From assembly GCA_001029295.1 (NCBI GenBank), contig LDXJ01000054.1, forward strand, positions 1 through 64,000: a stretch of 64,000 bases of DNA. The letters are read 5' to 3'. Source of the stretch: Peptococcaceae bacterium CEB3 (GTDB lineage: Bacteria > Bacillota > Desulfitobacteriia > Desulfitobacteriales > Desulfitobacteriaceae). A program made the translations under genes and the position numbers. Each line of letters starts with the position of its first letter. The first letter of the stretch is position 1. The notes under the pieces are model-generated. The model saw only the letters and a list, made by a program, of their open reading frames with translations, made no database searches and had not been told where the DNA came from. This document shows, in pieces, positions 7,198 through 43,356 of this stretch.

Positions 7198-8793
7198 TCA
7201 CTGTGCTTTCACCGTCACATCTTTTCCGTCATCGAATTGCACATTCATCGTATCCCCCCTCTGCACGCCCAGCGACGGATGATAGACCGCAGCCTCGTTA
7301 GCCCACAGGGTCCCGTCTCCGCCGGTGCGCGGCACCAACTCGCTTTTCCCCGTCCTTTCGTCCGTGACCGTAATCTCCGACGGATTGGTGAAATCCACAC
7401 CGCTTTGTCCGTAGGCTTGCCACGTTGTATTGTCCTGCTCCGCCGCAAGCAGTGTCCAGGGCTGTCCGTCCATGGCCGGGACGTACACGGCAAAGGCCGG
7501 AGTGGACTGAAGCTGGGTGTAAATCGCGAGGACTGACGGGGCATACGTGGGATTATAGCGTTCCCCATTGGAGGCTGTGCCGCCGTTGTAGGCGTACAGG
7601 GCCTGGGTGATGTCGTTGTACTGACTCAGCGCATTGTCGAGGATGGACGCTCCGGCGCTGATGTTGCGCACTACATTAAAGGGATCACTCGCGAGTCCGT
7701 AAGCAGCCCAGTTGGTCGAGTTGATTTGACAGAGTCCCGCATCGGTGGTGCCGTCTGATTTGTTGTAATTCTTTGCCCGCCAGTTGCCAACCGATTCATG
7801 CGCAATGAGCGCCAGGAACAAGGGCTGCGGGATGTCTGGGTGCTGCGCCAGAACCAGGGTCACTTCGTTCGCGTAGGCCAGGGCATAGGTCGGCGAGGTC
7901 GCGAAATTCTGTCCGCCCTGTATGCCCAGGTTAATCGCGTATTCTGGGTCATACGTCATGGCAAGGTGAGTCACAACCTCGAATGTCGCCTCATCCTTGA
8001 TACCCCGCGCCTTTTTTAAGTAGGCTTTCAGGGGCAGATAAAGGACCTTCGGCGGCGTGATTTGCTTGACTACCTCGCGGGTTACGGTGACGCTTCCTCC
8101 GCCCGGCCCCGGCGACGTGGTGGTCTGCCACTTGTAGGCATAGCTGAAATGCCCCTCGAACGTATCGGCGGCTGTGACCAGCTTGACCTGCTTTTTGCTG
8201 GTCGTGGTGGTGCACACCCGCTGACTGCTCTTGTTGCCTTGTTTATCCGTCGTCGTCTCGTTGTGGCAGGACACCGTCACGGTGGTGATGGTCGAATCCT
8301 TCCAGCTAAACTGGGGTTGCAGGGCATTAAAGACGGCCTGGGGATGGGGGTGAACATTCCGCTTCCCCTCCCAGACCGCATCATCGTTGACCACCCGGTC
8401 CACGGCCATGAGCATGGACCAGGGAAATTTATAGACCATGACCTGACTGCGCTGGTTCTGTGTGAGCCCTTTGTCCCAGGTGTTCGCAATCGTCTTGTAC
8501 CGCGTGAGCAAGGTTTTCTCCGCTTCGGCTTTTTTTTGAGCATCCGGCGAAGCGGTAATTCCGAGAAATGCTTCGACCTTAGTAATTGTACTTGTAACCG
8601 TGTGCATCGCCTCTGCCGGGATACTGAATAACATCACATAGGCCATGTAGGCCATGAAGAGGATAAGCACCGGCGGCCCCCAATAGGGAGCCGTCGCTTT
8701 GAGAATGTGGCGTGCCGCCTTCTTGCCGAATTTCTTTCCGGCCTTTTTGAGCATTCGTCCGGCAGATTTGACCAAGTCTTTTTCACGGGGCAT
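7198..8793 (-). CDS. VirB1-like lytic transglycosylase of the T4SS
   Basis: 531 residues. A basic N-terminus is followed by a TM helix (about 40-57), a long region with two cysteines (176, 194), and a lysozyme-like SLT domain at about 300-430: catalytic Glu333 in LIAHESVGNW, GLCQIN (353-358) and YNGG (402-405). The C-terminal ~110 residues are a separate beta-rich part. VirB1-type enzymes open peptidoglycan for conjugation channels, and single-pass anchoring is typical of Gram-positive systems. The start codon overlaps the stop of the VirB6-like gene, showing tight translational coupling. Confidence 0.9.
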   Translation of the reverse strand: MPREKDLVKSAGRMLKKAGKKFGKKAARHILKATAPYWGPPVLILFMAYMAYVMLFSIPAEAMHTVTSTITKVEAFLGITASPDAQKKAEAEKTLLTRYKTIANTWDKGLTQNQRSQVMVYKFPWSMLMAVDRVVNDDAVWEGKRNVHPHPQAVFNALQPQFSWKDSTITTVTVSCHNETTTDKQGNKSSQRVCTTTTSKKQVKLVTAADTFEGHFSYAYKWQTTTSPGPGGGSVTVTREVVKQITPPKVLYLPLKAYLKKARGIKDEATFEVVTHLAMTYDPEYAINLGIQGGQNFATSPTYALAYANEVTLVLAQHPDIPQPLFLALIAHESVGNWRAKNYNKSDGTTDAGLCQINSTNWAAYGLASDPFNVVRNISAGASILDNALSQYNDITQALYAYNGGTASNGERYNPTYAPSVLAIYTQLQSTPAFAVYVPAMDGQPWTLLAAEQDNTTWQAYGQSGVDFTNPSEITVTDERTGKSELVPRTGGDGTLWANEAAVYHPSLGVQRGDTMNVQFDDGKDVTVKAQ

Positions 8794-10901
8794 CAGGCAA
8801 CCCCCCTGTTTGCGCTGTAAGACGAATTGTTCCCGGTGGTGCCGGGTTTCTTGCTCCCCACGTACGCTTTCAGCTCATCGTGGGAACGCATTCTCATCCG
8901 TGCCAAGGTCGCATCTGCGGCATGGGTATCATACATGCCCTTGAGCCCCTGATACTGGTCGTGCAGATCTTTCGTCTTCTGATCGTCCGCTCCGTTATGC
9001 GCAAGCGAGTGCTCATATTTGGCCTGGGCCATGTCCATTTGCGGCTGTAGTTCTCTCATACTGTTCTGCGCGGTCTGAATTGTTTCTCGATTCTCCTGAA
9101 AGAATCCCGGCGCATCATAGAGCGGTACGTCGTCGCTTCCCGGTCTTGACGATATTTTGTTCATAGCTCCCTGATATCCAAAGGTGGCCCCGGCCAGCAT
9201 ACCGCCTTTCTCTATAGACTTCGACATGACGTTCTGCCCGATATTCCTGCCGACAGCCCCCAGCCCCCCTCCGGCAGAGAGGGTTTCCGCCGCCGTGCGG
9301 ATATGCCCGCCGACACTCCCGGCGGCATTGCCGACCAGTTTGCCACCGTGTCTGCCCGCAAGAGACGCGCCGCCAATTCCGAGCATGGCACCGGGCGTGG
9401 CTTTGCCGCTGATCATACTGGACATGACACCGCCAGCAACTGCCGCACTAGCCCCCAGACCGACTTTGGCAGCTGTCCGCACGGCTTTGTTCCCGGCCAC
9501 GGCCCCCGCGCTTCTGGCGACCGTACTGCCTGTGTTAAACGCTCCTTGAGCCATGCGTCCAAGCGTTGACGTGGCTCCGGAGAGAGGAGTACTGCCACCC
9601 TTACCGCCGCCGATACCGCCAGCCATGGCTCCCATGGCCCCACCTAAGCCGCCCAGGGCTGTTCCAGAGCCCATGGCACCGCCGATACCGCCTAGGGCTC
9701 CGCCGTCTCCTCCGCTGGCTCCTCCGGCATCCTTTCCGACTTGTCCTTTAATGGGACTTCTTGTCATCATGCGCCCCATGGCGGCAACCGAAGCAATACC
9801 CGCCATAGCGCTGATACCCGCGACCGCCCGACTGCCGCCGCCGGGTTGGAGGCCCAGCATCTCCCGGATGAGCGAGGCAATCGTCGGCATTCCGGCAAAG
9901 TACGTGATCATGAGCCAAAAGGAGACTCCGCTGTAGCTCTGCATCCCTTTAGAGTAGATCGTGATGAAGAAAACTCCGAGCGCCAAGGCGTGAGCTAACT
10001 GCAAAATGACATTGGCGACAAACTCCTTAAACCACATGGGTAAGGCGTGCCGAAATCCGGGGAAAATAGTGAGCCCGGCGGCCAGCGGAAAGATCATGAT
10101 GAGCAAACCCAAGATGATAAAGCGCATGGTGTACTGATAGTTAAGCGCCAGCACCATCATGGCCGCCAAGATGAGCAGGATGACCATGGGAATCCCCAGC
10201 ATCTGAGTTGCAGCATCGAATCCCTTCTGCCCGGCTCCCCAGATCATGTCCATGAAGAAGGTGGGCTTGACTCCGTGCGACATCATGAAAAGCCAAATAA
10301 GCTTGACAAAGAAATCGTTTAAGAGGATGATCCAGCTCCAGATATACGCCCCGAAGCGCACCGTGGCGAGGGCAATCAGGATAAACTTCGCATTGTCTTT
10401 GATTTTGGCTCTCCCTTGTGCCGTGCCGGAGTTAATCATGTGCATGATGGCAAAGAGGATGAGCGCAATCACCAAGGGATAGGGCAGGAGATACTTAAAC
10501 CCGTTATAGAGCACGCTGACTGCATCAAAAAAGGGCTTCGGAAAAAGCCCCAGGACATATTTATTCGCCTGGCTGTAGAGCCCTTGGGCGAGCATTTGAT
10601 TCGACGCGTCGGCTTTCGGCACGACGTTAAAAACCAGCACCACCGGATCGGAAAGCTGGCAGACATTCATGACCCACTTGACCGAGCCGATGAGGATTCC
10701 GGCGATAAATCTCTCGCCATAATTGGGCTTGTTCTTGCTGTTCGCGTAGTAACTACTAACTTTCTTGTTAGACAGCAGCGGCGTGGGCGACGTTGAAGTG
10801 GATGCTGTCGCCGCCATGACCACGGAGGACATGACCAGCACGAGGATGACCGCCAAGATGAGGACGGCCACCCATTTGTACTTTTTGGGCATTCGATACA
10901 T
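8793..10901 (-). CDS. VirB6/TrbL-like polytopic T4SS channel protein
   Basis: 702 residues from the ATG at 10901, five bases after the VirB4 stop codon and preceded by GGGGG. An N-terminal hydrophobic segment resembles a signal, then six to seven TM helices lie between about residues 90 and 360. After that comes a Gly/Ala-rich stretch (about 370-600, many GGxGGA repeats) and a charged, helical C-terminus. This is the VirB6/TrbL or Gram-positive TcpH/CD1112-like pattern: inner-membrane pore component. The glycine-rich region is low complexity and probably extended. Coupled to VirB4 upstream and VirB1 downstream. Confidence 0.85.
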   Translation of the reverse strand: MYRMPKKYKWVAVLILAVILVLVMSSVVMAATASTSTSPTPLLSNKKVSSYYANSKNKPNYGERFIAGILIGSVKWVMNVCQLSDPVVLVFNVVPKADASNQMLAQGLYSQANKYVLGLFPKPFFDAVSVLYNGFKYLLPYPLVIALILFAIMHMINSGTAQGRAKIKDNAKFILIALATVRFGAYIWSWIILLNDFFVKLIWLFMMSHGVKPTFFMDMIWGAGQKGFDAATQMLGIPMVILLILAAMMVLALNYQYTMRFIILGLLIMIFPLAAGLTIFPGFRHALPMWFKEFVANVILQLAHALALGVFFITIYSKGMQSYSGVSFWLMITYFAGMPTIASLIREMLGLQPGGGSRAVAGISAMAGIASVAAMGRMMTRSPIKGQVGKDAGGASGGDGGALGGIGGAMGSGTALGGLGGAMGAMAGGIGGGKGGSTPLSGATSTLGRMAQGAFNTGSTVARSAGAVAGNKAVRTAAKVGLGASAAVAGGVMSSMISGKATPGAMLGIGGASLAGRHGGKLVGNAAGSVGGHIRTAAETLSAGGGLGAVGRNIGQNVMSKSIEKGGMLAGATFGYQGAMNKISSRPGSDDVPLYDAPGFFQENRETIQTAQNSMRELQPQMDMAQAKYEHSLAHNGADDQKTKDLHDQYQGLKGMYDTHAADATLARMRMRSHDELKAYVGSKKPGTTGNNSSYSANRGVA

Positions 10902-10905
10902 TGGT

Positions 10906-12990
10906 TTAGGCCCCCTTCTGCTCGGGCACGGCTTCCGGTTCGGGTACTTCTCCGGGTTCAGGCACTTCTCCGCCCAACTTCTGTTTAAGCAGTTTAAGCA
11001 GGTCTTTGCGCTGCCAAAAGGCGGGGTCATTGGGGTCGGTCGTAAACATCATGTGCTCGTAATCGGAGGCTTGGGTAAAGACCACATCCGACTCGTCTTC
11101 GATACGCAGAATGACTTCTCCCCGCCGGGCATTGAGCAGAAAGCCCGATTCGCCCTCGGACAAACGCAGCTGTTCCTGGATGGTTTCAATGTCCACCGCC
11201 TCCTGCTTGCCAATAATTTTTACCGGCGAGTTTTTGATCGCGGCGATGCCCGCCTTCGATCTGGCAAAGACTTCAAGTCCCTGGGTGACAGCGCAGACTC
11301 CGGTGTTGGTGGTCCGAAATTCCCGGTAAGCCGTCTCGGCAAAGGGCCCGCCCACATCCTCGTCGTCAAAGATGTTCTGCGCCTCTTCGATAACGATGAT
11401 TTTCGCCTGGCTCACGTCCGCTTTGGCAAAGTTTTCGTTAAGCCAGATGGCCATAGCCGATAACCCAATCGGCCTCATGATGTCTTTGTCCAGACGATTT
11501 AGGGCAAAGCCATAGCCAGGATGCCCTCGCAGTTCCACGGTACTCTGGCCGTCAAAAATTGCGTAAGACGGGCTGACACCATGTCGAGTAAACGGTTTAA
11601 GGAGTTCCGCTGCTTGCTGTACGCTTTCGATGTCACTTGCCGCCATTTTGAGGTAGAGTCCACCTAATTCCGGCATGGGTTTCTTCTGCCGGGTGGATAT
11701 GCTTTCACTTGAGATCGCTGTTTGATACAGACTTTTGGGGTCTTTTGTTATACCGGCTTCGGCGTATTGTTCCCTGATAGCCTCGCCGATGAAAACTTTA
11801 ACCCGGCCTGTGAGAACACTCCGGTCATAGCTGCCGATCATCTTGAACACGAGGGCCTGCACGTTGTTCGACACCGATTCGATGTCGATATAGCGGGTAC
11901 CATCCACGTCCTGAGTCACTTCCAAATCATAGGGGTTGACCCGGTTCGGGGAATGTTCGCTGAACTCAATATAGGGTAAACCGCTGAGCAGAAACCAGTC
12001 TTTGTGCTCCCCCTTCCAGTCTAAGACCGCTACCTTGCGGCCAATGTGCATACTCCGGTGCATGATAATCTGAGTCGTATAAGTTTTTCCCGCGCCGGTG
12101 CGTCCTAAGACAACCATGTGCTGGCAGGGAAGCGACGGGTGCCACTGATCAAAGCGGACGGGTCTGCCTAATCCATCCAGGCCAAGAATCACACCGGTTT
12201 TGTGTGTGATCCCCCCCTGCGCAAAGGGAAAGAAATCCGCTAAGTTAGAGGATTCCAAAGTCACAAAATGCTCCTTCTGCATCCCCTGCGGCGGGGCAAT
12301 GGGCAGGATGGCTTGCAGGGCCGCCAACTGCTGGCCGTCGGCTGGGCGCAGATAGATAGACTTGCCCGCGAACCGCTTGATAAGCGCGTTGCAGTACATC
12401 TTGAAACTTTTTAAGTCGGTGCCGCTGGCGATGACCTGAATGGACGTTTTGAACGAACGTTCAATCTCCATCCTGAGCTTCTTCTGCCGGGTTTTGATGT
12501 CCTCAACCTCGTCGCGCATGGTGTCGATCTTCGAGGGATCACCGGCCAGGGCAATGTCCGAGAGCAGCCCCCGGAGTCTGCGGCTGAGTTCCTGGAGTTC
12601 CACGTCAGTGGAAGCGGGACGGACATGGATGGCAATATCTACGTCGCCATCCCCGAAGTTCCCCCGCGAGAGTTCGTCGAGCATCCCGCCCCAGGTGTTG
12701 CCGGACATGATTTCCGCGAAGAAGGACCGATAGTAGCGGTGGATGGTGGACGTGCCGCCGATTTCCACCATGTATTCGCCGACCACCGCCCCGTCGGAAA
12801 TGTCGGTGGGCAGCAGTTCTTTGACCACGGAGGGGGCCACAAAGTCGATAGGTTCAGGCTTGCCGTCATAGATACCGGGTTGGGCTTTCCTGCCGTCCAC
12901 TCGTTTGGCAGCAGCGTTCTCCGGACTGGACGGACCAGCCGCCGGTTGAATCGTCGGTTTACTCTTCTTGATTGTTGTTTTTAAGGCCAT
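10906..12990 (-). CDS. virB4: VirB4-family conjugation ATPase
   Basis: 694 residues from the ATG after GGGGAGGAAAAGA. The N-terminal half is the VirB4/TraC-like non-catalytic region; the C-terminal half is the HerA/FtsK-type motor: Walker A GRTGAGKTYTT (about 296-304), Walker B KIIVIEEAQNIF with Glu535/536, and a downstream Gln/Arg sensor region ending in QEAVDIETIQEQLRL. VirB4 powers pilus assembly and substrate transfer and is the hallmark gene of T4SS. The extreme C-terminus is a low-complexity EVPEPGEVPEPEAVPE repeat. No VirD4-type coupling ATPase is seen in this window. Confidence 0.95.
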   Translation of the reverse strand: MALKTTIKKSKPTIQPAAGPSSPENAAAKRVDGRKAQPGIYDGKPEPIDFVAPSVVKELLPTDISDGAVVGEYMVEIGGTSTIHRYYRSFFAEIMSGNTWGGMLDELSRGNFGDGDVDIAIHVRPASTDVELQELSRRLRGLLSDIALAGDPSKIDTMRDEVEDIKTRQKKLRMEIERSFKTSIQVIASGTDLKSFKMYCNALIKRFAGKSIYLRPADGQQLAALQAILPIAPPQGMQKEHFVTLESSNLADFFPFAQGGITHKTGVILGLDGLGRPVRFDQWHPSLPCQHMVVLGRTGAGKTYTTQIIMHRSMHIGRKVAVLDWKGEHKDWFLLSGLPYIEFSEHSPNRVNPYDLEVTQDVDGTRYIDIESVSNNVQALVFKMIGSYDRSVLTGRVKVFIGEAIREQYAEAGITKDPKSLYQTAISSESISTRQKKPMPELGGLYLKMAASDIESVQQAAELLKPFTRHGVSPSYAIFDGQSTVELRGHPGYGFALNRLDKDIMRPIGLSAMAIWLNENFAKADVSQAKIIVIEEAQNIFDDEDVGGPFAETAYREFRTTNTGVCAVTQGLEVFARSKAGIAAIKNSPVKIIGKQEAVDIETIQEQLRLSEGESGFLLNARRGEVILRIEDESDVVFTQASDYEHMMFTTDPNDPAFWQRKDLLKLLKQKLGGEVPEPGEVPEPEAVPEQKGA

Positions 12991-13054
12991 TCTTTTCCTC
13001 CCCTTTTGGGGATGTTCCCCAAGGTATACTGACTCCACATTCCATTTCCTGCTT

Positions 13055-13735
13055 CTATCCCACCGCGCTTCGCAAAATAACGAGCATCAGCAGGTGCACA
13101 GGGTAGAAGGCATAAAAGAACCACTTATTCAGTCGGACAGAAACCGGGTGCTCCCTGAACCAGAGGACCAGCAAAACCCCAGCATAGGCCGCAAAGTCTA
13201 CCGGCCAGTTCGAGCGGATTGCCAAAAGAATTACCGCAATACCCTGGCTTATGGCGAGGAAAACCGGATTGTCCCGGCCCAGGTAGAACAGCACCGGCAT
13301 GGCAACGCCGACAAAGCCATAGTCCACCGGGACAACAGAGGCTAAGACTGCTATCCCAACGGCCAGCAGAAGTCTCCTTTTGTCCAGAGCTTCTATGAGC
13401 AGGAGGGCAAAAACAAGGGTGAATAGGGTATCCCCTCTATGCCCTCCGAAAAAGAGAGTATACGGGATCTGCGCCGCAAGGGCACAAAGAAAAAGCCGCC
13501 CTTTGTATCGGCGGATATTGCGTGTTCGGGTATATCCTTCCGCAACTTCATAGGCGAAGATGGGGAAGGCGAGACGGCCCAGAATTCGCAGGATAGGGTA
13601 CTGTGGGAAGAAACCAAAGCCAACATGATCGACGAGCATCGAGAGGATACCTATGAGCTTGAGCGCATCGACGGCCACCGGCCTTACCCTCCGGAGGCCG
13701 GTGTGTTTTGAGTGTTTTGCCGAACTATGCTGCAA
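13055..13735 (-). CDS. traX: TraX-family membrane protein
   Basis: 226 residues (an internal GTG at 13678 with GGAGG nearby is an alternative start). Seven or so TM helices; characteristic family segments DALKLIGILSMLVDHVGF, GRLAFPIFAYEVAEGY and FYAFYPVHLLMLVIL. TraX of plasmid F N-acetylates pilin, and the family is an acyltransferase-like group common in Gram-positive conjugative elements. Here it lies immediately upstream of virB4 with 65 bp between, and its 5' end overlaps the gene at 13684, consistent with one operon. Confidence 0.88.
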   Translation of the reverse strand: MQHSSAKHSKHTGLRRVRPVAVDALKLIGILSMLVDHVGFGFFPQYPILRILGRLAFPIFAYEVAEGYTRTRNIRRYKGRLFLCALAAQIPYTLFFGGHRGDTLFTLVFALLLIEALDKRRLLLAVGIAVLASVVPVDYGFVGVAMPVLFYLGRDNPVFLAISQGIAVILLAIRSNWPVDFAAYAGVLLVLWFREHPVSVRLNKWFFYAFYPVHLLMLVILRSAVG

Positions 13736-15594: not shown

Positions 15595-15948
15595 TTATAT
15601 ATGACGATCTCCCCCCTTCGCAGTGTTTATTTTCCGGTAGTAGAAGACTCTCTGCCGCCGCCGCACAGCCACCCAGCGAAGGATGTATTTCCACAGCGGT
15701 ACGCCGGTGGCAGGGTGACTCGCTTTGGCGAAGAAATAAGCGACCAGCAGCGGAATCGGGTAATGCAGGTATTTCAAGGGGAAGGGCAGCAGGGGGATAG
15801 GGGGCACGATCTGCGTCATTTTGTAGCTGACGATGACCCCTGCGGCAATCCAGGCGAACTCGCCTAAAGAAAAAGCAAGGGGGCCCAAAGAGAAAAAGAT
15901 CTCTTTGAGGCCCGATTGATAAGGTAACTCGTGAATTTCTCTGTACAT
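15595..15948 (-). CDS. PrgI/TcpE-like (VirB3-type) T4SS membrane protein
   Basis: 117 residues with two closely spaced TM helices (about 30-52 and 62-75) and a basic C-terminal cytoplasmic segment RRRQRVFYYRK, the signature of PrgI/TcpE proteins of Gram-positive conjugation systems, the functional counterparts of VirB3. These anchor the VirB4 ATPase at the membrane. The gene lies between the pilin-like gene and the VirB4-N-like gene, the common order in Firmicute ICEs. Confidence 0.82.
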   Translation of the reverse strand: MYREIHELPYQSGLKEIFFSLGPLAFSLGEFAWIAAGVIVSYKMTQIVPPIPLLPFPLKYLHYPIPLLVAYFFAKASHPATGVPLWKYILRWVAVRRRQRVFYYRKINTAKGGDRHI

Positions 15949-15960
15949 GTGTTTTTTCTC

Positions 15961-16377
15961 CTATGCCTTTAGGCCGAGCCAGTGCATCAAAGTTCCCACA
16001 ATTTGTTCTGCCATAAAGGCAACAATCAATGCCAACACTAAGGCTCCGACTCTGCCCTTCATGTCCGTAATGGTCTTGACATTCGGACTCCAAATCAAGC
16101 TGTAGGCAACTACAATGAGCATCACGACCACAAAGACAATTGCAACAGTCCGCAAAAAACCGACGACGGAATTCCCCGCGTTCTGTGCGCTGGTCGTGAG
16201 CCCATTGACGGAATTGCCGCTGATCGCCGCCTGAACCCCGGCCATGACGTTTGTTGTCGTGTTTGTTGTATTGCTGGCGAGAGCCACGACCGGCAGGGCC
16301 ATGAGCAAGGCCATAACCACCAGCACTACGATGCTGGTTTTGCGTAGATTGGACCGTTTAAAAAGATGTGCAAACAT
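15961..16377 (-). CDS. VirB2/TrbC-like pilin candidate
   Basis: 138 residues: signal sequence (about 1-35, cleaved near VVALASN), a short Thr/Asn-rich N-terminus, then two hydrophobic helices (about 72-93 and 108-130) with a short polar loop, as in VirB2/TrbC major pilin or channel subunits. It opens the VirB-type run (pilin, PrgI, VirB4-N, ...). No good ribosome binding site precedes the ATG; instead a short hairpin (arms 16390-16395 and 16401-16406) and a T6 run end right at the start codon, so either the true start is elsewhere or initiation is unusual. Confidence 0.78.
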   Translation of the reverse strand: MFAHLFKRSNLRKTSIVVLVVMALLMALPVVALASNTTNTTTNVMAGVQAAISGNSVNGLTTSAQNAGNSVVGFLRTVAIVFVVVMLIVVAYSLIWSPNVKTITDMKGRVGALVLALIVAFMAEQIVGTLMHWLGLKA

Positions 16378-16441: not shown

Positions 16442-16630
16442 CTAGACTTCTTGTGCCGAAACGAACAGCTTCTCATGGATGTTCTGTACGGTTGTTCGCT
16501 CTTGCACGGTATCGCGCACATAATCCAGGATCTCAAAGGCCGCGTCCAGCGTACATTCGTTTTCGGCCAGAAGATTGACAATCGTTCTTGCGATCTTTTC
16601 GTTCTTGGCAGTGGCTTCCACTTTGTCCAT
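16442..16630 (-). CDS. 62-residue acidic helical protein
   Basis: ATG preceded by GGGAGGGGAG. The product is soluble, acidic and helical (begins MDKVEATAKNEKIARTIVNL). No family recognised. Placed between the selenoprotein and the pilin-like gene in the same direction with short gaps, so translated from the operon mRNA. Could be a regulator, chaperone or antitoxin-size protein; nothing decisive is visible. Confidence 0.6.
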   Translation of the reverse strand: MDKVEATAKNEKIARTIVNLLAENECTLDAAFEILDYVRDTVQERTTVQNIHEKLFVSAQEV

Positions 16631-16642
16631 CTCCCCTCCCTT

Positions 16643-17131
16643 CTACTTGTTTTTGACAGCGGCCAGGACGGTGCCGAGTTGAACCTCCTTTCTCGTCCCA
16701 TTCTCAACTTTGAATACGGCTGGAACACGGTCCACCCCATATTCCGCCTTGAGTTTGTCCATGTCGGCCTGGGACAGGACGGACACATCCACCCGCCACA
16801 CCGGCATTGCCTTCCCTGACAGTTGCAAATACTTCTTGAGCTTCGGCCCGAAGCTAATGCAGCCAGGTCAGGTCGGGCTGAAAAAATAAAGATAGTACGA
16901 TTTGTCGGAAATCGTACTAATCTTGTCGAACGCTATGGTTTTGCCTACCTCACTGGACTGATTGGCCGTTGAAACCGGTTGTGGCAGAATGGCATGTACC
17001 TGGGGCTGAACAGCCGCCGGGTCTGCTCTCACGGGCGGTGTGGTGGACGCTCTTACCGGGAGGAGTGTGCCGCGAAGGGCGATCACCGCCACGATGAGCC
17101 CCACCAAGAGCAAAACGAGCGAGCGTTTCAC
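16643..17131 (-). CDS. Selenocysteine-containing membrane-anchored thioredoxin-like protein (in-frame UGA)
   Basis: 163 codons with a single in-frame TGA at codon 88 (16868-16870). Before it: a basic start, one TM helix (about 4-22) and a linker leading to YYLYFFSPT. After it: PGCISFGPKLKK, then a thioredoxin-fold tail with the cis-proline in RVPAVF (Pro137). The TGA is exactly where the first Cys of CxxC belongs, giving UPGC, and a hairpin follows at bacterial SECIS distance. The start codon overlaps the TM2 gene stop. It would face the outside and reduce or isomerise disulfides, perhaps of T4SS parts. Alternative: a nonsense mutation; the exact position and the hairpin argue against it. Confidence 0.8.
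16839..16867 (-). promoter_or_regulatory. Candidate bacterial SECIS hairpin after the UGA
   Basis: Reading the minus strand from the base after TGA, 12 bases are followed by AGCTTCGGGCCGAAGCT (16839-16855), a 7-8-bp perfect stem with a tiny loop containing GGGC. The loop G starts 18 bases after the UGA, the same spacing as the GGUC loop of E. coli fdhF. Unpaired T residues precede the stem and could supply the bulged base SelB recognises. Function is inferred. Confidence 0.65.
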
Positions 17132-17403
17132 GCGGAAATTCCCCCTCCGGGAATACTTCCCTGGTTGATCTTTTCGGCGAGCTTATATGCGTCGTAGATG
17201 GCCCAGATCCAGGTGATGAGGCCGGTAAGATAGCCGATGAACACAAACATGAGCAGTACATTGATGAACTGAATGCCGATGATGATGAGACCCCGAAGAA
17301 TCCGACCATTGTAGATTTGCCCCAGGCCGCTGATGAGGAAACTGAGCACCGCCGCCACACCGGGGCTCTTACGAGGATTTTGGTTGAGCATTTGATTGGA
17401 CAT
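17128..17403 (-). CDS. TM2-domain membrane protein
   Basis: 91 residues from ATG with GAAGGA upstream. Two TM helices (about 15-35 and 40-65) carry the TM2 signature: SPGVAAVLSFLISGLGQIYNG, then GLITWIWAIYDAYKLAE, followed by a short tail. The family has unknown biochemical function; the DxF/DAYxxA loop is present. It is co-translated with the selenoprotein (ATGA overlap), suggesting a joint role in the cell envelope. Confidence 0.85.
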   Translation of the reverse strand: MSNQMLNQNPRKSPGVAAVLSFLISGLGQIYNGRILRGLIIIGIQFINVLLMFVFIGYLTGLITWIWAIYDAYKLAEKINQGSIPGGGISA

Positions 17404-17447
17404 AAACATCCTTCTTTCGTTTTGGTTTTTTCTATGAGACTCGCTCA

Positions 17448-18167
17448 CTACAGCGAGATTCCCACCATGTGCAGGATCGGCAGTCCCCCGGCGTACACAA
17501 ACCACGCCAAGAGCCCCAGCCGGATCACCACAACATCCCAGAGACTGCCGGTCTTGATCGACACCGGCAGATGAATGCGCTTTTTATACAGCGGGTACAA
17601 CAGCGGCACCCCGTCGGCAATGAGATCTAACAGCAGGTGGCTCAGGTATCCGGCTCCGAAGACCATGAGCAGCGGCACGCGCCAGGGTGCCAGAAACGGT
17701 GACAAACCGAGAAGCGTGTCCGCGCCCCAAAGGAAAAGCGCCATGCCCAAAAGGGTATGGGTCATTCCCCGGTGCTTGAGAGACGAGATGATGACCAGGA
17801 CAGCCCCCAGCAGTCCGAGAATTAGGCTTGCCTTGCCGCCGTAACGTAAGACAAGGCTCTGGGCTGCGTGGACGCTGACAACCCGTTCTGCGAGCGCCGG
17901 GATACGCAGACACACGCTGAGTGCAAGTAGGAACAGTCCGCCGAGCATGGCCCCGGCCCGCGAGCTGCCCAGCGGCCCGAAGAGATCCCGGTCAATGGTG
18001 CTTCCGGGCTGATCCATGTCCGGCAGGAGTCCCCCCAAAACCGCGCCCCCCAGTCCGACCGTAAGAACGGCGATATTCTGGGGGGCTGTGACCAGAGTAC
18101 CGGATACTGCCGGGTGTAAGAGTGACCAGGCGGCCAGAGCCCCGGCAATGTGTGTTTTTCCCATCAT
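17448..18167 (-). CDS. YdjM-like membrane metal-dependent hydrolase
   Basis: About 239 residues, ATG (two in tandem) after AAGGGGAT. Multi-TM protein with the PF04307 signature: GKTHIAGALAAW at the start, GLLPDMDQPGS, then SSLKHRGMTHTLLG with the His and Asp ligands, and YLSHLLLDLIADGVPLLYP. E. coli YdjM is a LexA-regulated inner membrane protein of this family; the activity is not established. Here the start overlaps the stop of the HNH gene. Present in many Firmicutes, so a housekeeping envelope role carried on the ICE is possible. Confidence 0.85.
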   Translation of the reverse strand: MMGKTHIAGALAAWSLLHPAVSGTLVTAPQNIAVLTVGLGGAVLGGLLPDMDQPGSTIDRDLFGPLGSSRAGAMLGGLFLLALSVCLRIPALAERVVSVHAAQSLVLRYGGKASLILGLLGAVLVIISSLKHRGMTHTLLGMALFLWGADTLLGLSPFLAPWRVPLLMVFGAGYLSHLLLDLIADGVPLLYPLYKKRIHLPVSIKTGSLWDVVVIRLGLLAWFVYAGGLPILHMVGISL

Positions 18168-19057
18168 AACAGTGTATCCCCTTCTTTCTGAGTTTCTTGT
18201 GTACACTGAATTAGGACTGCAAGTTGTGCCTTTAGATATTCTGCGGCCTCACCCCCCTTCGCCAAAAACGCATCGACTGTCTTCAGGATCTTTTCCGCCT
18301 GTTTCTGTTCGGCGGACTGCTCTTCTTGCACAATGTTCTGTTTGCCCTCGTCTTCCAAGATGGCTTTGCGCATCTGTCGGGTACTCAGTTCCTGATCGGC
18401 GGCCTCCTGGATGTACTTAGCAGGATCAGGAGAGTTGGCCGCGACCCGGTGGTGGTACCAACTCAGGGAGGGGACGCGCATACCCTCCTGCGGGAAAGCC
18501 CGGTAAACCTTCACCAGTTCCCGAATCTGCGCCGTGCTGCTCCCTACCTGGGAGGCGAGCCAGCCCTGCTGTACGCCGGAATCGAGCATGGCCGAAAGCA
18601 GTTGCCCCTTGATCCAGCGAGCATTCTTCTCCTGTTCGTCGATCTGGACATAGGCGCTGATCATTTCTTCCAGACTGGGTTCCTGCCGGGGAAGGGCACC
18701 GCCCTCCGGCAGTTCTGTCGGCTTCGATGGTTTTTCTAGGGCGGATGGATACAGGCGTATTTTTGCACAAACCTCATCATACCCAATTCCCTCCCTGTCG
18801 GCAACGATTTGCACGAGCGTTTGCCGCGCTATGTTGCCGTCGTGCGCCTTCCGGTGGCATTCCCCGCAAAGGCTGATCAGATTTTCCTTAATGTCGTCCC
18901 CGCCCGCGCCCCGGCTTTTGATGTGGTGGGGCTGGCCGAAAACCGGTTGATTGCAGCGGACCCCGGTGGCGGGATCGACATACTTGCAGTATTTGGTACG
19001 GACAGCTTCGATAGCCGAACTGTCCTCAATTCGCTTTTCAATTTGCAGACTCAACAT
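18164..19057 (-). CDS. HNH nuclease domain with ParB-like helical C-terminus
   Basis: 297 residues. N-terminal HNH module: a CxxC-type pair (YCKYVDPATGVRC), PHHIKSRGAGGDD with the His-His metal/catalytic pair, NLISLCGECHRKAH as the finishing zinc and His residues. The C-terminal two thirds are charged and helical; QQGWLASQVGSSTAQIRELV looks like a helix-turn-helix as in ParB/KorB- or DUF3102-type proteins. It could be a site-specific nicking or nuclease protein or a partition-related regulator. The start lacks a strong ribosome binding site. Translationally coupled to the YdjM-like gene. Confidence 0.78.
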   Translation of the reverse strand: MLSLQIEKRIEDSSAIEAVRTKYCKYVDPATGVRCNQPVFGQPHHIKSRGAGGDDIKENLISLCGECHRKAHDGNIARQTLVQIVADREGIGYDEVCAKIRLYPSALEKPSKPTELPEGGALPRQEPSLEEMISAYVQIDEQEKNARWIKGQLLSAMLDSGVQQGWLASQVGSSTAQIRELVKVYRAFPQEGMRVPSLSWYHHRVAANSPDPAKYIQEAADQELSTRQMRKAILEDEGKQNIVQEEQSAEQKQAEKILKTVDAFLAKGGEAAEYLKAQLAVLIQCTQETQKEGDTLL

Positions 19058-19140
19058 TTTATCCCTACTTCCACACGAAAAGAGAGCCTTTCGGCCCTCG
19101 TTGTGTTTATTGCACCCACCTGGCATACGGTTGGAATCTC

Positions 19141-21047: not shown

Positions 21048-21605
21048 TTATCCCTCCTTCGGTAATCGAATTTCTACCTTCAGCCGCCGCCGTCCGAACT
21101 TGATCGCACGCGCCCGGCTGTTCATGTACAGATCGAGATGGTCCCCCCGGATGGCACCACCCCGATCTGTAACTGTGTACGTGCGGCCTAGCGCCGGGAT
21201 GAAGATCCGCGTTCCGAACGGGATCTGCGGCGGGGCCGCGATGGTGACACCTTCTTCGACCGGTGCACCGGAGGCTGTGATCCCGCACCCGTTCATGGTT
21301 TTGTCGTTTTTGGTATATGCCGTGACGATCATCCAGCGTATTTCCGGCTTACTTGCTGCGGGCTTTCCCCGCGATACGGTTTCCTTTGGGAGTACGGGTA
21401 CTCTCCTTATGGCCTTGATCACCTTGAGCTTATTGGGCAGTTGGTGCTGTGCGGGCGGGGGACAGGCTAGATTTGCCCGTACTGCCGCTTCCCTGCCTTG
21501 TACAGACGCGCAGGGGACGGTTGGCTGTGCTTGGACGGTGGACGCTAAAAGAATCGTTGCAAGGGCAATAACGGCGGCTGAGGATCTACTCGGGGGAGCC
21601 AACAC
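21048..21605 (-). CDS. 3D-domain (double-psi barrel) secreted wall protein
   Basis: 185 residues from GTG/TTG after GGGAGA; the longer frame upstream overlaps another gene. Signal-like hydrophobic start (AAVIALATILLASTVQA), a linker, then the 3D domain: TAYTKNDKTMNGCGITASG, VTIAAPPQIPFGTRIFIP and the Asp triad in TVTDRGGAIRGDHLDLYM. This is the MltA-like lytic fold of Rpf2/YocH-type proteins, cleaving or binding peptidoglycan. With the VirB1-like and L,D-transpeptidase proteins, it is the third wall-active enzyme on the ICE. Confidence 0.88.
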   Translation of the reverse strand: MLAPPSRSSAAVIALATILLASTVQAQPTVPCASVQGREAAVRANLACPPPAQHQLPNKLKVIKAIRRVPVLPKETVSRGKPAASKPEIRWMIVTAYTKNDKTMNGCGITASGAPVEEGVTIAAPPQIPFGTRIFIPALGRTYTVTDRGGAIRGDHLDLYMNSRARAIKFGRRRLKVEIRLPKEG

Positions 21606-21780
21606 AGATCTCCCATCGGTAGCCTTCGCCGTAGAGCCCTTGCAGTTCCGCCATGTACTTTTCCGCCGCATCCCTTGCATCTTCGCGTGTCTTAAACTCG
21701 GTGCCCACCCTGTAGGTCTCGTATGCCTTATCCAGATGGGCTTGACTCTCTTCGGCCACAAAAACAAAAGCGACAAACAT
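21586..21780 (-). CDS. Small acidic protein, 64 residues
   Basis: ATG with a strong GGAAGGAGG site. Composition: hydrophobic first nine residues, then a charged helix (KTREDARDAAEKYMAELQGL) and an aromatic end. The start overlaps the stop of the gene at 21780 and its own end overlaps the 3D-domain gene, so all three are co-translated. No family recognised. Confidence 0.65.
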   Translation of the reverse strand: MFVAFVFVAEESQAHLDKAYETYRVGTEFKTREDARDAAEKYMAELQGLYGEGYRWEICVGSPE

Positions 21781-24856: not shown

Positions 24857-26020
24857 TTACGCGGCTACAGTTCTTGTGCGCTTGGCTGTCTTCTTCCTCC
24901 TGAGTGTGGTCGGCACCTGGATACACTCGCCCGCTAACCCGCTGATGGCCTGGGCAATGTTGTCGGCGGCATTTGCGTCGATGTGCTTGCTCTGCTTGCA
25001 CCGGGGACACGTGTACCACCGGCCCGCCGGGCGGCTGGTTCTTACTTCTCCGCACCGGCTGCATGTGAGACTGGTTAACTCCGGATTGACAAGCTCTACT
25101 TCGATTCCCGCCAAAGCCGCTTTGTATCCGATGAACTGCCTTAACTGGAAGAAGGCCCAGGAGTGGAGACTCCGTCCCGCGTCTTTGCGCTGTTTTTTTC
25201 GTTGGCTTTTTGTCCACCGGGCACCCCGCAGATCTTCCAGGCGGATGACGCTGACTCCGTGGAGCCTAGCCATTTCCACCAGCCTCCGGCTGATCATGTG
25301 GTTCATGGCGGTGATCCATCGGTGTTCTTTGTCCGCTAGTTTCTTGAGTGCTTTGTGCGCCCCCTTCTTCTGGAGTTTTTTCCGCAGGTTTGCGTAGTGT
25401 CGCCGGATGTAGGCGAGTTCCGCCCCGCTGAAGAACAGGGTAGATCCGAGGATACTTGCAACCGCAAGGTCGATGAGCCCCAGGTCCACGCCCATATACT
25501 TCGGCGGCTTTTGCTCCGCTTTCACGCTGACGGTGAGCGCCAGGTGGATGTACCACCGTCTGCCGCACTTGATAAGCTGCGCTGTGCCTTGTTTGGCTTG
25601 ACCGGCAAGCAGAAGTTCCAGGTACTTGACTTGGTACTTCTCTACTTGGATGGGCACACCCACCCGCTTTTCCAGGGTGGGGAAGGAGACTTTCCAGGCG
25701 GCTCCGCCGCCCTGCAGGGTCTCTTTCTCTACCCGGAACTTCTGGTTGTTGAAGTCCGGCCAAAGCCGCTTGAATGATTTCGCGTTTTTCTTGGCTTCGA
25801 TGTCCCGGATGGCCTGGCACAGGACAACGGCTGGCAAGGGCTCCGAGAATGCTTTGGCATCCGCTGATGACTTTGGACGCATGGGTTTCTCCACTCCGAG
25901 ATACCGGTTTGCAAAATCGGTTGTCCTGTCGGCCATGGTCTGGTACATGTCCTGCTTGGCTTTCGTAGGTTCAAAGAGTTTGAGTTTGATCGTGATGACT
26001 TGGGTTCTAGTCTCTTCCAT
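24857..26020 (-). CDS. tnpB: TnpB RNA-guided endonuclease (copy 2)
   Basis: 387 residues with all catalytic parts: Asp179 in YMGVDLGLID, Glu262 in VIRLEDLRG, Asp348 in KHIDANAADN, zinc ribbon Cys320/323/338/341 (SRCG and CPRCKQSKH). A GGGGAGGTAAAC site precedes the ATG. Differs from copy 1 mainly at both ends and in scattered substitutions, so both appear to be under coding constraint. The C-terminal 30 residues (GLAGECIQVPTTLRRKKTAK) differ from copy 1, as expected if the guide-RNA region evolves faster. Confidence 0.93.
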   Translation of the reverse strand: MEETRTQVITIKLKLFEPTKAKQDMYQTMADRTTDFANRYLGVEKPMRPKSSADAKAFSEPLPAVVLCQAIRDIEAKKNAKSFKRLWPDFNNQKFRVEKETLQGGGAAWKVSFPTLEKRVGVPIQVEKYQVKYLELLLAGQAKQGTAQLIKCGRRWYIHLALTVSVKAEQKPPKYMGVDLGLIDLAVASILGSTLFFSGAELAYIRRHYANLRKKLQKKGAHKALKKLADKEHRWITAMNHMISRRLVEMARLHGVSVIRLEDLRGARWTKSQRKKQRKDAGRSLHSWAFFQLRQFIGYKAALAGIEVELVNPELTSLTCSRCGEVRTSRPAGRWYTCPRCKQSKHIDANAADNIAQAISGLAGECIQVPTTLRRKKTAKRTRTVAA

Positions 26021-26430: not shown

Positions 26431-27738
26431 TCATGCGCAGGTGGGTGCCCCCGGATTCATCCGTGGGGAGGAAACCTGCGCCCCCAATTGATACTCATAC
26501 GCATCCGCGCGTTGAATAATTTTGAGGTACTTTGGGTGTACATCAAACCCGTTGAGCTTAAAACTAGGTCTAAAGCGGATGGCTATGCGTCCCGTATGCG
26601 TACCAGCATATTTCCCTTTCGGTATCATGGCTTTTGCAATATCACCCGTCTGAAATCCAATGAAAAACTTTGCTTTTGGAGCGTGTTTTATTGGGAATCC
26701 GTATTTATCTGTGATACACCGTTGCCTCTTACCATGCCCGGCGGCGGCAATCACTAGAATCGGCCTTGCGGGAATCACGATCCGCCCCGGCGTACTCTTG
26801 CCAACGCAAGTCGCATCTAGCCAGTGTGTCTTTGGTAGGTTTCGCTGTGCCCGATTGTACTTCGTCTGTCCCCCGGTGCCAGTTTCGACCGGCAAGCCAG
26901 TTGCTTTAAGACGTTCATACAACTGCCAGCGTGTGACATTGACGCCTGCTGCGTCTCTCAGCGGCTTTTTTGCTTGCTTTTGAATATCCGGAAAACCAAA
27001 TTCTTCCGCTGTCCTGTTATCTTTTTTCCAGTTGCAAGCATGACAGGCCAGCGTTAGATTACTCACCCGATTTGTACCTCCTCTGGATTTTGGTACGATA
27101 TGCTCGACTTCCAGCGGTACGTCAACTTTGCCGCAGTAGGCACATTTACGGCCCCATTTTTCCAGCAGGTATTCCCGGATTTCGTAACCAAAGAGTTCGC
27201 CTTGCTGATACTCTATCCCGGAGATTTCTGGGTTTTGTAACTTTTGGGTATCGAACCGGACTAACTCCATTGAGATTGCTCCAATGGGAGCCAGTCTGCA
27301 CAGCCTGTTTACCCAGGTTGTGATGTTCTCGACACGGCTTTGTAGCGAGGGTGGAAGCCAACCTTTCGGTCTGCGCCGGTTTAGAAATCGGCACGCCCGA
27401 TAGCGCGTTTTCCGGTTACGACAGCCTCTCCGCAGTCCTCTGCGCTTAGCCAGTAATTTCTTGATGGCGAAGCCCCGGTGATTCAGTTCTGCCGCCCAAA
27501 GAACGGTCCCGGTGTTACCGTTTTCCAGCAAAAGTGCGAATCCAGTTGTCTTTGCGCCAGGATCAATCTTGAGCCGCAGTCCGATTGGCCTTGCATCTGA
27601 CTTAGCCTCTTTCAGAATAATCATAAACGGAAACCGTCGGAAAATTGCTGCCCTACCCTGTTTGAGAAGTTTCCGCGCTATCGCCGGATGACACGGTGAT
27701 AACGGCTTTTTGTTAGTGTCCAGTACTAATACGAACAT
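26431..27738 (-). CDS. iscB: IscB RNA-guided nuclease (ancestor-type of Cas9)
   Basis: 435 residues from the ATG after AGGGGAGAGAACAGAA. Domain order: PLMP/RRXRR-type N-terminus (about 1-50), RuvC-I Asp59 in LRLKIDPGAKTTGF, arginine-rich bridge helix (about 97-125), RuvC-II Glu158 in AISMELVRFD, HNH (CAYCG at 199-203, His213 in VEHIVPKSRGG, ACHACNWKKDN), and RuvC-III HWLDA (305-309). All catalytic residues are present, so both nuclease sites look active. The C-terminus is encoded by the right-end hairpin region. It should use the adjacent omega RNA, possibly also the orphan scaffold at 37985. Confidence 0.94.
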   Translation of the reverse strand: MFVLVLDTNKKPLSPCHPAIARKLLKQGRAAIFRRFPFMIILKEAKSDARPIGLRLKIDPGAKTTGFALLLENGNTGTVLWAAELNHRGFAIKKLLAKRRGLRRGCRNRKTRYRACRFLNRRRPKGWLPPSLQSRVENITTWVNRLCRLAPIGAISMELVRFDTQKLQNPEISGIEYQQGELFGYEIREYLLEKWGRKCAYCGKVDVPLEVEHIVPKSRGGTNRVSNLTLACHACNWKKDNRTAEEFGFPDIQKQAKKPLRDAAGVNVTRWQLYERLKATGLPVETGTGGQTKYNRAQRNLPKTHWLDATCVGKSTPGRIVIPARPILVIAAAGHGKRQRCITDKYGFPIKHAPKAKFFIGFQTGDIAKAMIPKGKYAGTHTGRIAIRFRPSFKLNGFDVHPKYLKIIQRADAYEYQLGAQVSSPRMNPGAPTCA

Positions 27739-27983
27739 TTCTGTTCTCTCCCCTTTCGAGGGTAATGTTTGCCTCGCCAATGTTATCGGGGCTTTTTGCG
27801 CTTAACACACTGGCTTAACCCTTGTACACCTGTTTAATGCTAAGCGACAGTTGCCTGGAACTTGCACGCATTCCAGGGTGTCGTGACCTCGATAACGTAG
27901 TCTCCGAAGGACTTAGGCTGGTCAACTGAGCTTGTTAAGATCGCTCCCTACAAGCTCCTGGCTTTAGCCATGGGGTGGTTGAC
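27739..27983 (-). ncRNA. IscB omega RNA with guide from the insertion flank
   Basis: Upstream of IscB the 245 non-coding bases begin GTCAACCACCCC...GGAGCTTG and contain ACTACGTTA and the hairpin CCTGGAA/TTCCAGG, the conserved blocks I associate with IscB omega RNAs. The guide sits just 5', at 27984-28003: ATCCTTTTGGAAAGGAAAGT. It matches 18 of 20 bases of the intact paralog site at 23070-23089. The 3' end reaches close to the iscB ribosome binding site. RNA ends are inferred. Confidence 0.8.
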
Positions 27984-33077: not shown

Positions 33078-35348
33078 CTATCCGAGCAGTGTTTCCCCCT
33101 CCTTTCTCTGGCTTACCAATCCCCTGATCCTCTCGGCCAAGAACGTCCTCCTTAGATTCGGAGTATTGTTCTTTATCGCTATGGCTACCGCTTTTTTCTG
33201 CCCCACCAGGATCAGCATTTCTTCGGCCCTCGTCATGGCTGTAAACAGAATATTCCGCGTCAGCATCATATAGTGGTTCGTGATCACCGGCGCAATAACC
33301 ACCTTAGCCTGGCCTCCTTGGGACTTGTGCGTCGTGATGCAGTAGCCCGTGGTGAAGTTAAAGTCCATGATGTCTTCACGGCTGAGCCACACTTCCTCTC
33401 CCCAGAGGTCACAGAGCAGTCCCTCTTCACTCCCTTCCGGATCGGCTGGGTCAGGGCCTATGTCTTTGACAATCCCCATGTTGCCGTTGTACAGCCCCTT
33501 ATCCACCGAATTCCGTTGGTTCTGTATGATCACGTCTCCCACCCGGAAGGCTCTGTTGCCAACGATAAGTTCTTTCTTGTCGCCGCGCGGCGGGTTCACG
33601 AGTGCTCTGATCGCCTCATCCAGCGCCACGACCCCCGCTATGCCCTTTTTCATGGGGGACAGGACGAGAATATCCTCCGGACGGTAGCCAAGCTCAAGGA
33701 GCCTCTTCACGCTTGCGAGGATGGTCCGCTGAGTGCTTTCCGCGTCCGGACGCTCAATGAAGCAGAAATCTTTTCTGCCGGGCACGGTGTAGATCATTTC
33801 ACCCCGCTTGACCCGGTGAGCATTTTCCGTGATGAGGCTGTTTTTTTCCTGCCGGTAGATCTCTGTCAGCTCTACGCTCTTGATGACTCCGCTGTCCAGC
33901 ATGTCTCGCAGAACGGCTCCAGGCCCTACTGAGGGCAGCTGATCCGGATCGCCCACCAGCAGGACTTTCCCTCCGCGCGGAATCGCCCGCAGGAGGCCGC
34001 TGGCCAGCTCAATATCCGCCATGGACCATTCGTCTGCCTCGATCAAGTCCTCTTCGAGTGGATTCAGCTCGTCTTTCCTGGCCTTTTCGGGGTTGACTCC
34101 CTCGTCTTCTGAGATTCTGACACCCCAGTTTAAGAGCCGGTGAACCGTCTTAGACTCGTAACCCGTTGTCTTATGCAGGTTCTGGCTGGCCCGGCCTGTG
34201 GGCGCACAGAGGGCAATCATTTTATGCGGAAAGATCTGACGGTAGATGGAAACCACGGCTTTTATGACTGCGCTTTTACCAGTTCCAGGGCCACCTGTCA
34301 ATATTAGGCAGTTGGTCTTAAAGAGGCTGTATATGACTTCCTGCTGTTGCGCATTGAGGATCAGCCGGTGCTTTGCCTGATACTTCACGATCTCCTGCGC
34401 AATTCTGCTTGGGGACACTGCCGGGCAGGGAGTCGTGACCAGATCGGCAATCCTAGCCGCCACCATGCGTTCGTATTCATAAAGGGTTTTCAGGTACACT
34501 CTGCCGTCTTCGGTCACGGTCTTACCGGCTTTTTGCAGGTAGTAGAGCGCACTGTCGATGACATTGCCACCCAGGACATTTTTAGATCGTTTGTTGAGCA
34601 GTGTCAAGGTGTCACGGACCAGCGCGTCATGCTCTGCGTAGCAGTGGCCGTCATACTCCCTTAGAACGTGCAGGACAGCGGCCTGACAGCGGGAAGGCGC
34701 GTCTTCGGACACACCCATGTTCCGGGCGATTTCATCGGCCTTGTCGAAGCCGACCATGCTGAGGTGGGTCAGTTCATAGGGATTGGCTTGGACCACGGGC
34801 ACAGCGTTGCCCTTGTACACCTGGTGCAGCTTGATCGCCATGGTGACGGTCACGCCGTACTGAGCCAAGTGCTTGATGATGTTTTGGACGTTGAAGTTTT
34901 CGGAGAGACTTGCGACGATCTTGTCCGCGCTCTTGGGTCCAATGCCCCTGATGGGGCGAAGGCAAGCTGCGCCATCCCGGAGGATACGCTCAATCGCGCC
35001 GTCTCCGAGGGTATCGACGATAAGTTTCGCCGATTTGGGACCGCATCCTTTTATGACACTGGAGGATAAGAGGTCAATCGCTTGGTTTCGGGTATTGGGG
35101 ATGGGTCTTTCCCACCCGGTGACTTGAATTTGCAGACCGTATTTCTTGTCGTTCACCCACTGGCCTTCGATGATAATATCGTCTTTTTCGTGGATTCCGC
35201 ACATGGCCCCTTTGATCGTGACTTCTGTCGTGTTTCCCGCAAGTACGGCAATCAGCCAACTTGTTTCTGTCGTCACTACACGCGGGAAGATAATCTTTTT
35301 GATCGTCCCTTTTAGGCGGACCGTCTCCTTTTGCCCTACGTCTGCCAT
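33078..35348 (-). CDS. recD2: RecD2-like superfamily-1 DNA helicase
   Basis: 756 residues. N-terminal OB-fold-like and helix-hairpin-helix segments (GTIKKIIFPRV; IRGIGPKSADKIVASL), then helicase motifs: Walker A GGPGTGKSAVIK (352-359), Walker B-like DEWSMADIELA, motif III GDPDQLPSVGPG and the C-terminal UvrD-like motif YCITTHKSQGGQ. RecD2 proteins unwind 5' to 3'. In an ICE it likely handles DNA strand separation during excision, replication or transfer. ATG after AAGGGAAGTG; start overlaps the end of the next gene upstream. Confidence 0.92.
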   Translation of the reverse strand: MADVGQKETVRLKGTIKKIIFPRVVTTETSWLIAVLAGNTTEVTIKGAMCGIHEKDDIIIEGQWVNDKKYGLQIQVTGWERPIPNTRNQAIDLLSSSVIKGCGPKSAKLIVDTLGDGAIERILRDGAACLRPIRGIGPKSADKIVASLSENFNVQNIIKHLAQYGVTVTMAIKLHQVYKGNAVPVVQANPYELTHLSMVGFDKADEIARNMGVSEDAPSRCQAAVLHVLREYDGHCYAEHDALVRDTLTLLNKRSKNVLGGNVIDSALYYLQKAGKTVTEDGRVYLKTLYEYERMVAARIADLVTTPCPAVSPSRIAQEIVKYQAKHRLILNAQQQEVIYSLFKTNCLILTGGPGTGKSAVIKAVVSIYRQIFPHKMIALCAPTGRASQNLHKTTGYESKTVHRLLNWGVRISEDEGVNPEKARKDELNPLEEDLIEADEWSMADIELASGLLRAIPRGGKVLLVGDPDQLPSVGPGAVLRDMLDSGVIKSVELTEIYRQEKNSLITENAHRVKRGEMIYTVPGRKDFCFIERPDAESTQRTILASVKRLLELGYRPEDILVLSPMKKGIAGVVALDEAIRALVNPPRGDKKELIVGNRAFRVGDVIIQNQRNSVDKGLYNGNMGIVKDIGPDPADPEGSEEGLLCDLWGEEVWLSREDIMDFNFTTGYCITTHKSQGGQAKVVIAPVITNHYMMLTRNILFTAMTRAEEMLILVGQKKAVAIAIKNNTPNLRRTFLAERIRGLVSQRKEGETLLG

Positions 35349-40366: not shown

Positions 40367-40457
40367 AGCCCGAAATACCCAAGGAAACACTTCCCAAAAG
40401 AGGGTTCTTACTCTATAATTAGAACAGAGGTTCCGTTGATAGGGGTTGTTGCGAGTC

Positions 40458-41738: not shown

Positions 41739-41937
41739 ACCGGCAGGTATCCGGCCTCTCTATACAGCCGCAGGGCCGGAGAGTCTGGATGGGTTAGTGG
41801 CACCACCCAGGGTTATCCGTCGGGAACTACGATACACAGGAGGTAGCGGCCAAGCCGCACATACTTCCAGTACTGCTTACCCACGGGTAGCCCGAAGAAA
41901 AGAAGCTACACGGCTTTGGCCGTTGTGGAGTGTCACT
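41739..41937 (+). ncRNA. Putative reRNA of the divergent TnpB, guide in the integrase leader
   Basis: The 199 bases from the tnpB stop to AGTGTCAC are GC-rich and non-coding, with hairpins such as CACGGCTTTGGCCGTTGTGG near the end. By analogy the guide is the flank TTCAAAATGAAAGAGGGG (41938-41955), which is the ribosome binding site region of the integrase. RNA and target use are inferred. Confidence 0.45.
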
Positions 41938-41962
41938 TCAAAATGAAAGAGGGGAATTAACC

Positions 41963-43268: not shown

Positions 43269-43280
43269 CTATGTTTTCGC

Positions 43281-43356
43281 TGGAGCCGACGATGGGACTC
43301 GAACCCGCAACCTGCTGATTACAAATCAGCTGCTCTACCAATTGAGCTACATCGGC
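43281..43356 (-). tRNA. trnT: tRNA-Thr (anticodon UGU), ICE attachment gene
   Basis: 76 nt on the minus strand ending in CCA, with acceptor stem GCCGATG/CGTCGGC, D-arm AGCTCAATTGGTAGAGC, anticodon loop TTTGTAA (anticodon TGT), and T-arm GGTTCGAGTCCC. The sequence supports Thr(UGU). Its 3' end points at the integrase; the 3' portion (about 43281-43300) should be the attachment core duplicated at the other ICE end outside the window. Confidence 0.95.

Follow-up and report, generated by a model that had tools for sequence, protein, structure and literature searches.

We examined an integrated conjugative element in the genome of Peptococcaceae bacterium CEB3 and found that its conjugation operon carries a gene that very probably encodes a real selenoprotein, a thioredoxin-like protein with an in-frame UGA at the first Cys position of its active site. 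The gene lies in the window, i.e., the whole stretch of 64,000 nucleotides analyzed here, which belongs to a 5.3-Mb draft genome of 64 contigs. The best explanation for its role, which we consider probable, is that of an envelope thiol-disulfide oxidoreductase with a Sec-x-x-Cys site, which would act on the exported proteins of the element, murein enzymes with additional Cys residues, in a TrbB-like manner.

A first-pass annotation of this DNA had noticed one UGA in an otherwise open frame of 163 codons, precisely where a thioredoxin motif has its first Cys. This was confirmed, and the frame was placed on the minus strand (17131 to 16643), which had not been given before; the UGA is its sole internal stop. 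The locus comprises the following features.

17128-17505, minus strand: small membrane protein, DUF5683/TM2-like, directly upstream of the Sec gene
16643-17131, minus strand: gene for the putative Sec-containing thioredoxin-like protein, with a GTG start, 162 residues plus TAG, and Sec at position 88
16868-16870, minus strand: UGA codon 88, probably read as Sec, in the context YYLYFFSPT-U-PGC
16442-16630, minus strand: ORF of 62 amino acids with no assigned function, the next gene downstream of the Sec gene

The GTG start overlaps the TGA of the upstream gene by 4 nt (GTGA) and is preceded by the purine-rich GGAGGGGG, and the 62-amino-acid ORF begins 12 nt past the TAG of the Sec gene, behind GGGAGGGG. 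When the product was aligned with 10 thioredoxin-like proteins that have a membrane anchor, U88 (SPT-U-PGC) coincided with the invariant first Cys of CxxC, C91 matched the second Cys, and P137 (VPAV) took the place of the cis-Pro, in agreement with the thioredoxin tail described earlier. As in bacterial selenoprotein genes, the in-frame UGA stands where homologues have Cys. The C-terminal half of the product matched Pfam Thioredoxin (PF00085) with E=1.7e-4 and 22.0 bits, just under the curated cut-off of 23.5, with the CxxC and cis-Pro features present, and the PDB thioredoxin 6ali was matched with E=4.1e-5. An AlphaFold model from the single sequence was unreliable (pLDDT 48.5) and was not used for fold searches; the order of strands and helices in this low-confidence model fits the thioredoxin core. 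At the N terminus, a single hydrophobic helix is followed by a proline-rich linker, which bears out the membrane anchor proposed in the first annotation.

Both parts of the frame are coding-like, with log-likelihood ratios per codon of 0.302 downstream and 0.274 upstream of the UGA, and the other forward frames gave negative ratios. The possibility that this host simply uses UGA as a sense codon was considered and rejected: TGA is a normal stop there, e.g., in the gene just upstream. The gene might also be a pseudogene, i.e., a CxxC gene whose first Cys codon mutated to TGA, leaving a stub of 87 amino acids next to an accidental hairpin. This we regard as improbable, since the 163 codons contain no lesion besides the UGA and only 1 of the 51 possible stop-creating single-base changes falls on the CxxC Cys codon. 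In favor of a pseudogene, no close homologue was found that would show selection on the frame, relatives of the element dispense with the gene, and a comparable hairpin is also yielded by a small share of synonymous recodings, as described below.

Downstream of the UGA, two nested structures were found.

16839-16855, minus strand: SECIS-like apical hairpin, AGCUUCGGGCCGAAGCU, with its loop 18-19 nt past the UGA
16815-16867, minus strand: extended stem-loop around the apical hairpin, with lower stems CCUG/CAGG and UGCA/UGCA

The apical hairpin (AGCUUC-GGGCC-GAAGCU) has 6 bp and a 5-nt loop beginning 18 nt past the UGA; in an alternative pairing, 7 bp enclose the loop GGC at 19 nt. The loop position of 18 nt that had been read from the letters thus holds (or becomes 19), whereas the stem, given as 7-8 bp, should be 6-7 bp. 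Of the 10,078 codons in genes of the window, 0.64% are followed by an equally good hairpin whose loop is of the G[G/U] type and lies 16-20 nt downstream; the share is 1.2% if the loop motif is ignored and 4.9% if the spacing may take any value from 16 to 37 nt. The hairpin arises in 5.0% of synonymous codon shuffles with the protein kept. These figures are not independent, and their product is not to be read as a formal p-value. A z-score of -2.8 was obtained for the fold of 58 nt counted from the UGA, and the minimum free energy (MFE) of the 60-nt region is -21.4, a stability that only 0.8% of synonymous recodings reach. The MFE fold of the isolated 60 nt has the same lower stem and another tip, and the SECIS-like tip costs 3.4 kcal/mol; when a 36-nt stretch lacking the lower stem is folded, hardly any difference remains between the tips (-8.0 and -7.9). 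A ribosome that halts on the UGA codon would melt the lower stem. The first-pass annotation had proposed checks against SECIS models. In its loop, its stem, and its distance from the UGA, the hairpin conforms to a bacterial SECIS model (PMC13188914), and its energy of -7.4 alone is at the limit of that model (-7.5). The Rfam part of this check gives no information here: a search of the UGA region found no SECIS family match, and the host's own selD and fdhA UGA sites were not matched either. Taken by itself, the SECIS evidence is moderate, because the 60-nt MFE fold favors a different tip.

A search for the Sec machinery, likewise proposed at the outset, found all four components in the same genome: selA (contig C60, 547 bits), selB (contig C63, 342-369 bits), selD (contig C60, 404 bits, with its own in-frame UGA), and tRNA-Sec, the selC product (contig C63, 66.8 bits, anticodon TCA). 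Two host genes for formate dehydrogenase (fdhA) likewise read through UGA. The hairpins of these genes have loops of AGC at 17 nt (selD), GGUCU at 18 nt (fdhA on contig C61), and AGUU at 18 nt (fdhA on contig C21), each on a 7-bp upper stem. The element's gene shares this geometry (GGGCC at 18 nt) but differs in that its full 60-nt fold favors an alternative tip. Both the match to the host's own SECIS elements and the capacity of the host to decode Sec speak against a pseudogene and support the core claim of a selenoprotein. They also bear on a sequencing or assembly error, in which the true codon would be TGC or TGT and the product an ordinary Cys-containing thioredoxin-like protein. A single wrong base would be enough, and the genome is a multi-contig draft; such an error would, however, have had to strike exactly the Cys codon, next to a SECIS-like hairpin, in a Sec-decoding host, and we consider it highly improbable. 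From the sequence, we infer that the host reads codon 88 as selenocysteine, and decoding would be carried out by SelB and Sec-tRNA, guided by the hairpin just downstream of the UGA.

The surroundings of the gene agree with its earlier placement in a T4SS operon of an integrated element.

7198-8793, minus strand: SLT transglycosylase, exported, whose additional loop is bounded by Cys176 and Cys194; a possible client
8793-11030, minus strand: polytopic membrane protein, VirB6-like in its position and hydrophobicity
10906-13038, minus strand: VirB4/TraC-like conjugation ATPase
15595-15948, minus strand: conserved conjugation protein of 117 amino acids, VirB3-like by position only, 68% identical in the related genome G004
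15961-16377, minus strand: VirB2/TrbC pilin-like protein
21048-21776, minus strand: exported 3D-domain protein with Cys89, Cys105, and Cys164, a possible client
41930-43162, plus strand: tyrosine integrase of the element, abutting tRNA-Thr(TGT)
43279-43325, no strand: 47-bp att core, the 3' part of tRNA-Thr(TGT)

The Sec gene is located just upstream of the VirB2 gene, with one small gene between them. An integrase, a conjugation ATPase with mating-pore genes, and a duplicated att site identify the element as integrative and conjugative. The att core is perfectly repeated elsewhere in the host genome, at ~107,888-107,934 of contig C62. This copy lies beside tRNA-Tyr and tRNA-Met, without an intact tRNA-Thr; on its other side come ~9 kb that contain CRISPR-like genes, followed by housekeeping genes (named by eye). 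The arrangement suggests a rearrangement at the integration site or a far end of the element that lies beyond reach. No relaxase or coupling protein was found among the window ORFs scanned; these genes may sit on another contig, because the contig starts inside the element. A TraX-like protein of the pilin acetylase family (13055-13735, minus strand, 125.7 bits) is also encoded in this operon, which is of the Gram-positive type with a VirB2-like pilin.

Close homologues with Cys at codon 88, which the first-pass annotation had suggested looking for in related elements, were not found. In 84,980 species genomes and in IMG/VR, a search by exact peptide words revealed no close homologue of the Sec gene, and tblastn found none in plasmids and only ordinary phage thioredoxins (E ~6e-3) in phages. 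Among genomes of the class (83) and of the phylum (398), nothing beyond generic thioredoxin-like proteins of up to ~35 bits was detected, and a degenerate DNA pattern for FSPT-U-PGC gave 10 matches in viral contigs, all in short chance frames. Across the genome, viral, plasmid, and phage collections searched, the Sec gene had no close Cys- or Sec-containing homologue, only remote thioredoxin relatives. Relatives of the element itself were reached via VirB4, of which relatives at ~80% identity occur in a Desulfosporosinus MAG (G028) and in G004, a member of the host's family. G004 has no thioredoxin gene between YdjM and VirB2 and carries a methyltransferase-like ORF and a 3D-domain gene at that place. 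In the relatives from Cohnella and Chengkuizengella, YdjM lies directly beside the VirB2-like gene. In the Desulfosporosinus MAG, the contig ends before the corresponding place, and no close relative was found elsewhere in the MAG. The Sec gene is accessory to the element family, because the relatives in G004, Cohnella, and Chengkuizengella lack it at that place.

The Sec protein also resembles chromosomal proteins of the host's family. Two of these (L017 and L011) have an N-terminal anchor like that of the Sec protein and share with it the pattern SPT(C/U)PxC (SPTCPKC versus SPT-U-PGC) and ~30-35% identity across the thioredoxin core. They differ in having Cys at both active-site positions and a shorter linker, and no conjugation operon was seen around either of them. 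Such relatives, with SPTCPxC, in the chromosomes of the host and a sister species would fit a real selenoprotein that is only cargo, a host-type membrane thioredoxin for general envelope redox balance or stress, as would the unrelated gene found in the corresponding stretch of the operon in one of the element's relatives. We consider this unlikely given the tight overlap with the upstream gene, the position just ahead of VirB2, the low identity to the host copies, and the extra Cys residues in the element's exported enzymes.

These residues were noted in two proteins. In the SLT transglycosylase, Cys176 and Cys194 close an inserted loop (VSCHNETTTDKQGNKSSQRVCTT) that is missing in both relatives (G028 and G004), and the three Cys of the 3D-domain protein lie past its membrane helix, in a part that is free of Cys in the G004 homologue. 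This is a correlation of one element versus two and hints that both proteins are candidate clients. In the oxidoreductase role that we prefer, the product would be a membrane-anchored, extracytoplasmic protein of thioredoxin fold with a Sec-x-x-Cys site. Outside the membrane, it would reduce or isomerize disulfides of exported conjugation proteins, e.g., the SLT transglycosylase and the 3D-domain protein. Electrons may come from a CcdA/DsbD-type protein of the host, whose genome contains three DsbD_TM/CcdA-type membrane protein genes.

TrbB, which belongs to the conjugation system of the F plasmid, has been proven to act as a disulfide isomerase (PMC11315126). The Sec protein would work like TrbB, with Sec as the attacking residue; both are thioredoxin-fold proteins from a conjugation operon with a UxxC or CxxC site, exported in TrbB and probably so here. 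In contrast to TrbB, the Sec protein is membrane anchored, comes from a Gram-positive-type host, and has Sec in place of Cys. The TrbB model (TIGR02738) gave a weak match (E=7.6e-4) of 19.2 bits against an equivalog cut-off of 132; TrbB may thus be a functional analogue, and we do not assign the Sec protein to this family. Sec-containing thioredoxins (PF00085, UxxC) are a known prokaryotic selenoprotein family (PMC13188914) and have been listed for Geobacter, Treponema, and Carboxydothermus (PMC1794560). The protein described here resembles them in its thioredoxin fold, Sec in the first position of UxxC, retained cis-Pro, and SECIS-like hairpin past the UGA, and differs in its membrane anchor, long linker, remote sequence (the Pfam match above), and location in a conjugation operon.

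Selenoproteins are usually catalogued as chromosomal enzymes. The word stems plasmid, conjug, and mobile are all absent from the main text of PMC13188914, and we found no precedent for a selenoprotein in a conjugation operon in the open-access literature, whose coverage was incomplete, so that this absence is weak evidence. If our reading is true, a mobile element would depend on a recoding trait absent from most bacteria, horizontal transfer would meet a testable, nutrient-dependent barrier, and disulfide management, known from F plasmids, would extend to Gram-positive-type conjugation. It is possible but rather doubtful that the conjugation machine relies on the selenoprotein, with transfer tied to the Sec machinery and selenium supply of the host. 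A restriction to Sec-decoding hosts, the only cells that would produce the full-length protein, is plausible for the product of the Sec gene alone; the element family exists without the gene. Further genes of this kind may be hidden, because standard annotation would truncate or miss them.

The element also harbors several other genes. A HEARO RNA (27762-27983, minus strand, 154.7 bits) lies directly upstream of an RRXRR/HNH ORF (26431-27780, minus strand), forming an IscB/OMEGA-type pair. Three TnpB/Cas12f-like ORFs are present (221-1381 and 24857-26020, minus strand; 40446-41735, plus strand). The window contig begins at one of these ORFs and contig C62 begins in a TnpB-like ORF, too; such ORFs are a likely cause of assembly breaks. 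A RecD2-type helicase is encoded at 33078-35348 (minus strand, 649 bits). Finally, an HNH-domain protein (18164-19126, minus strand) adjoins the YdjM gene, and in the Cohnella element the ORF beside YdjM (L031, 1715-2590) is similar by eye (HIKTRGAGGSD, PTLSWYHHRVAA), which suggests that the HNH protein and YdjM may form an old conserved pair.
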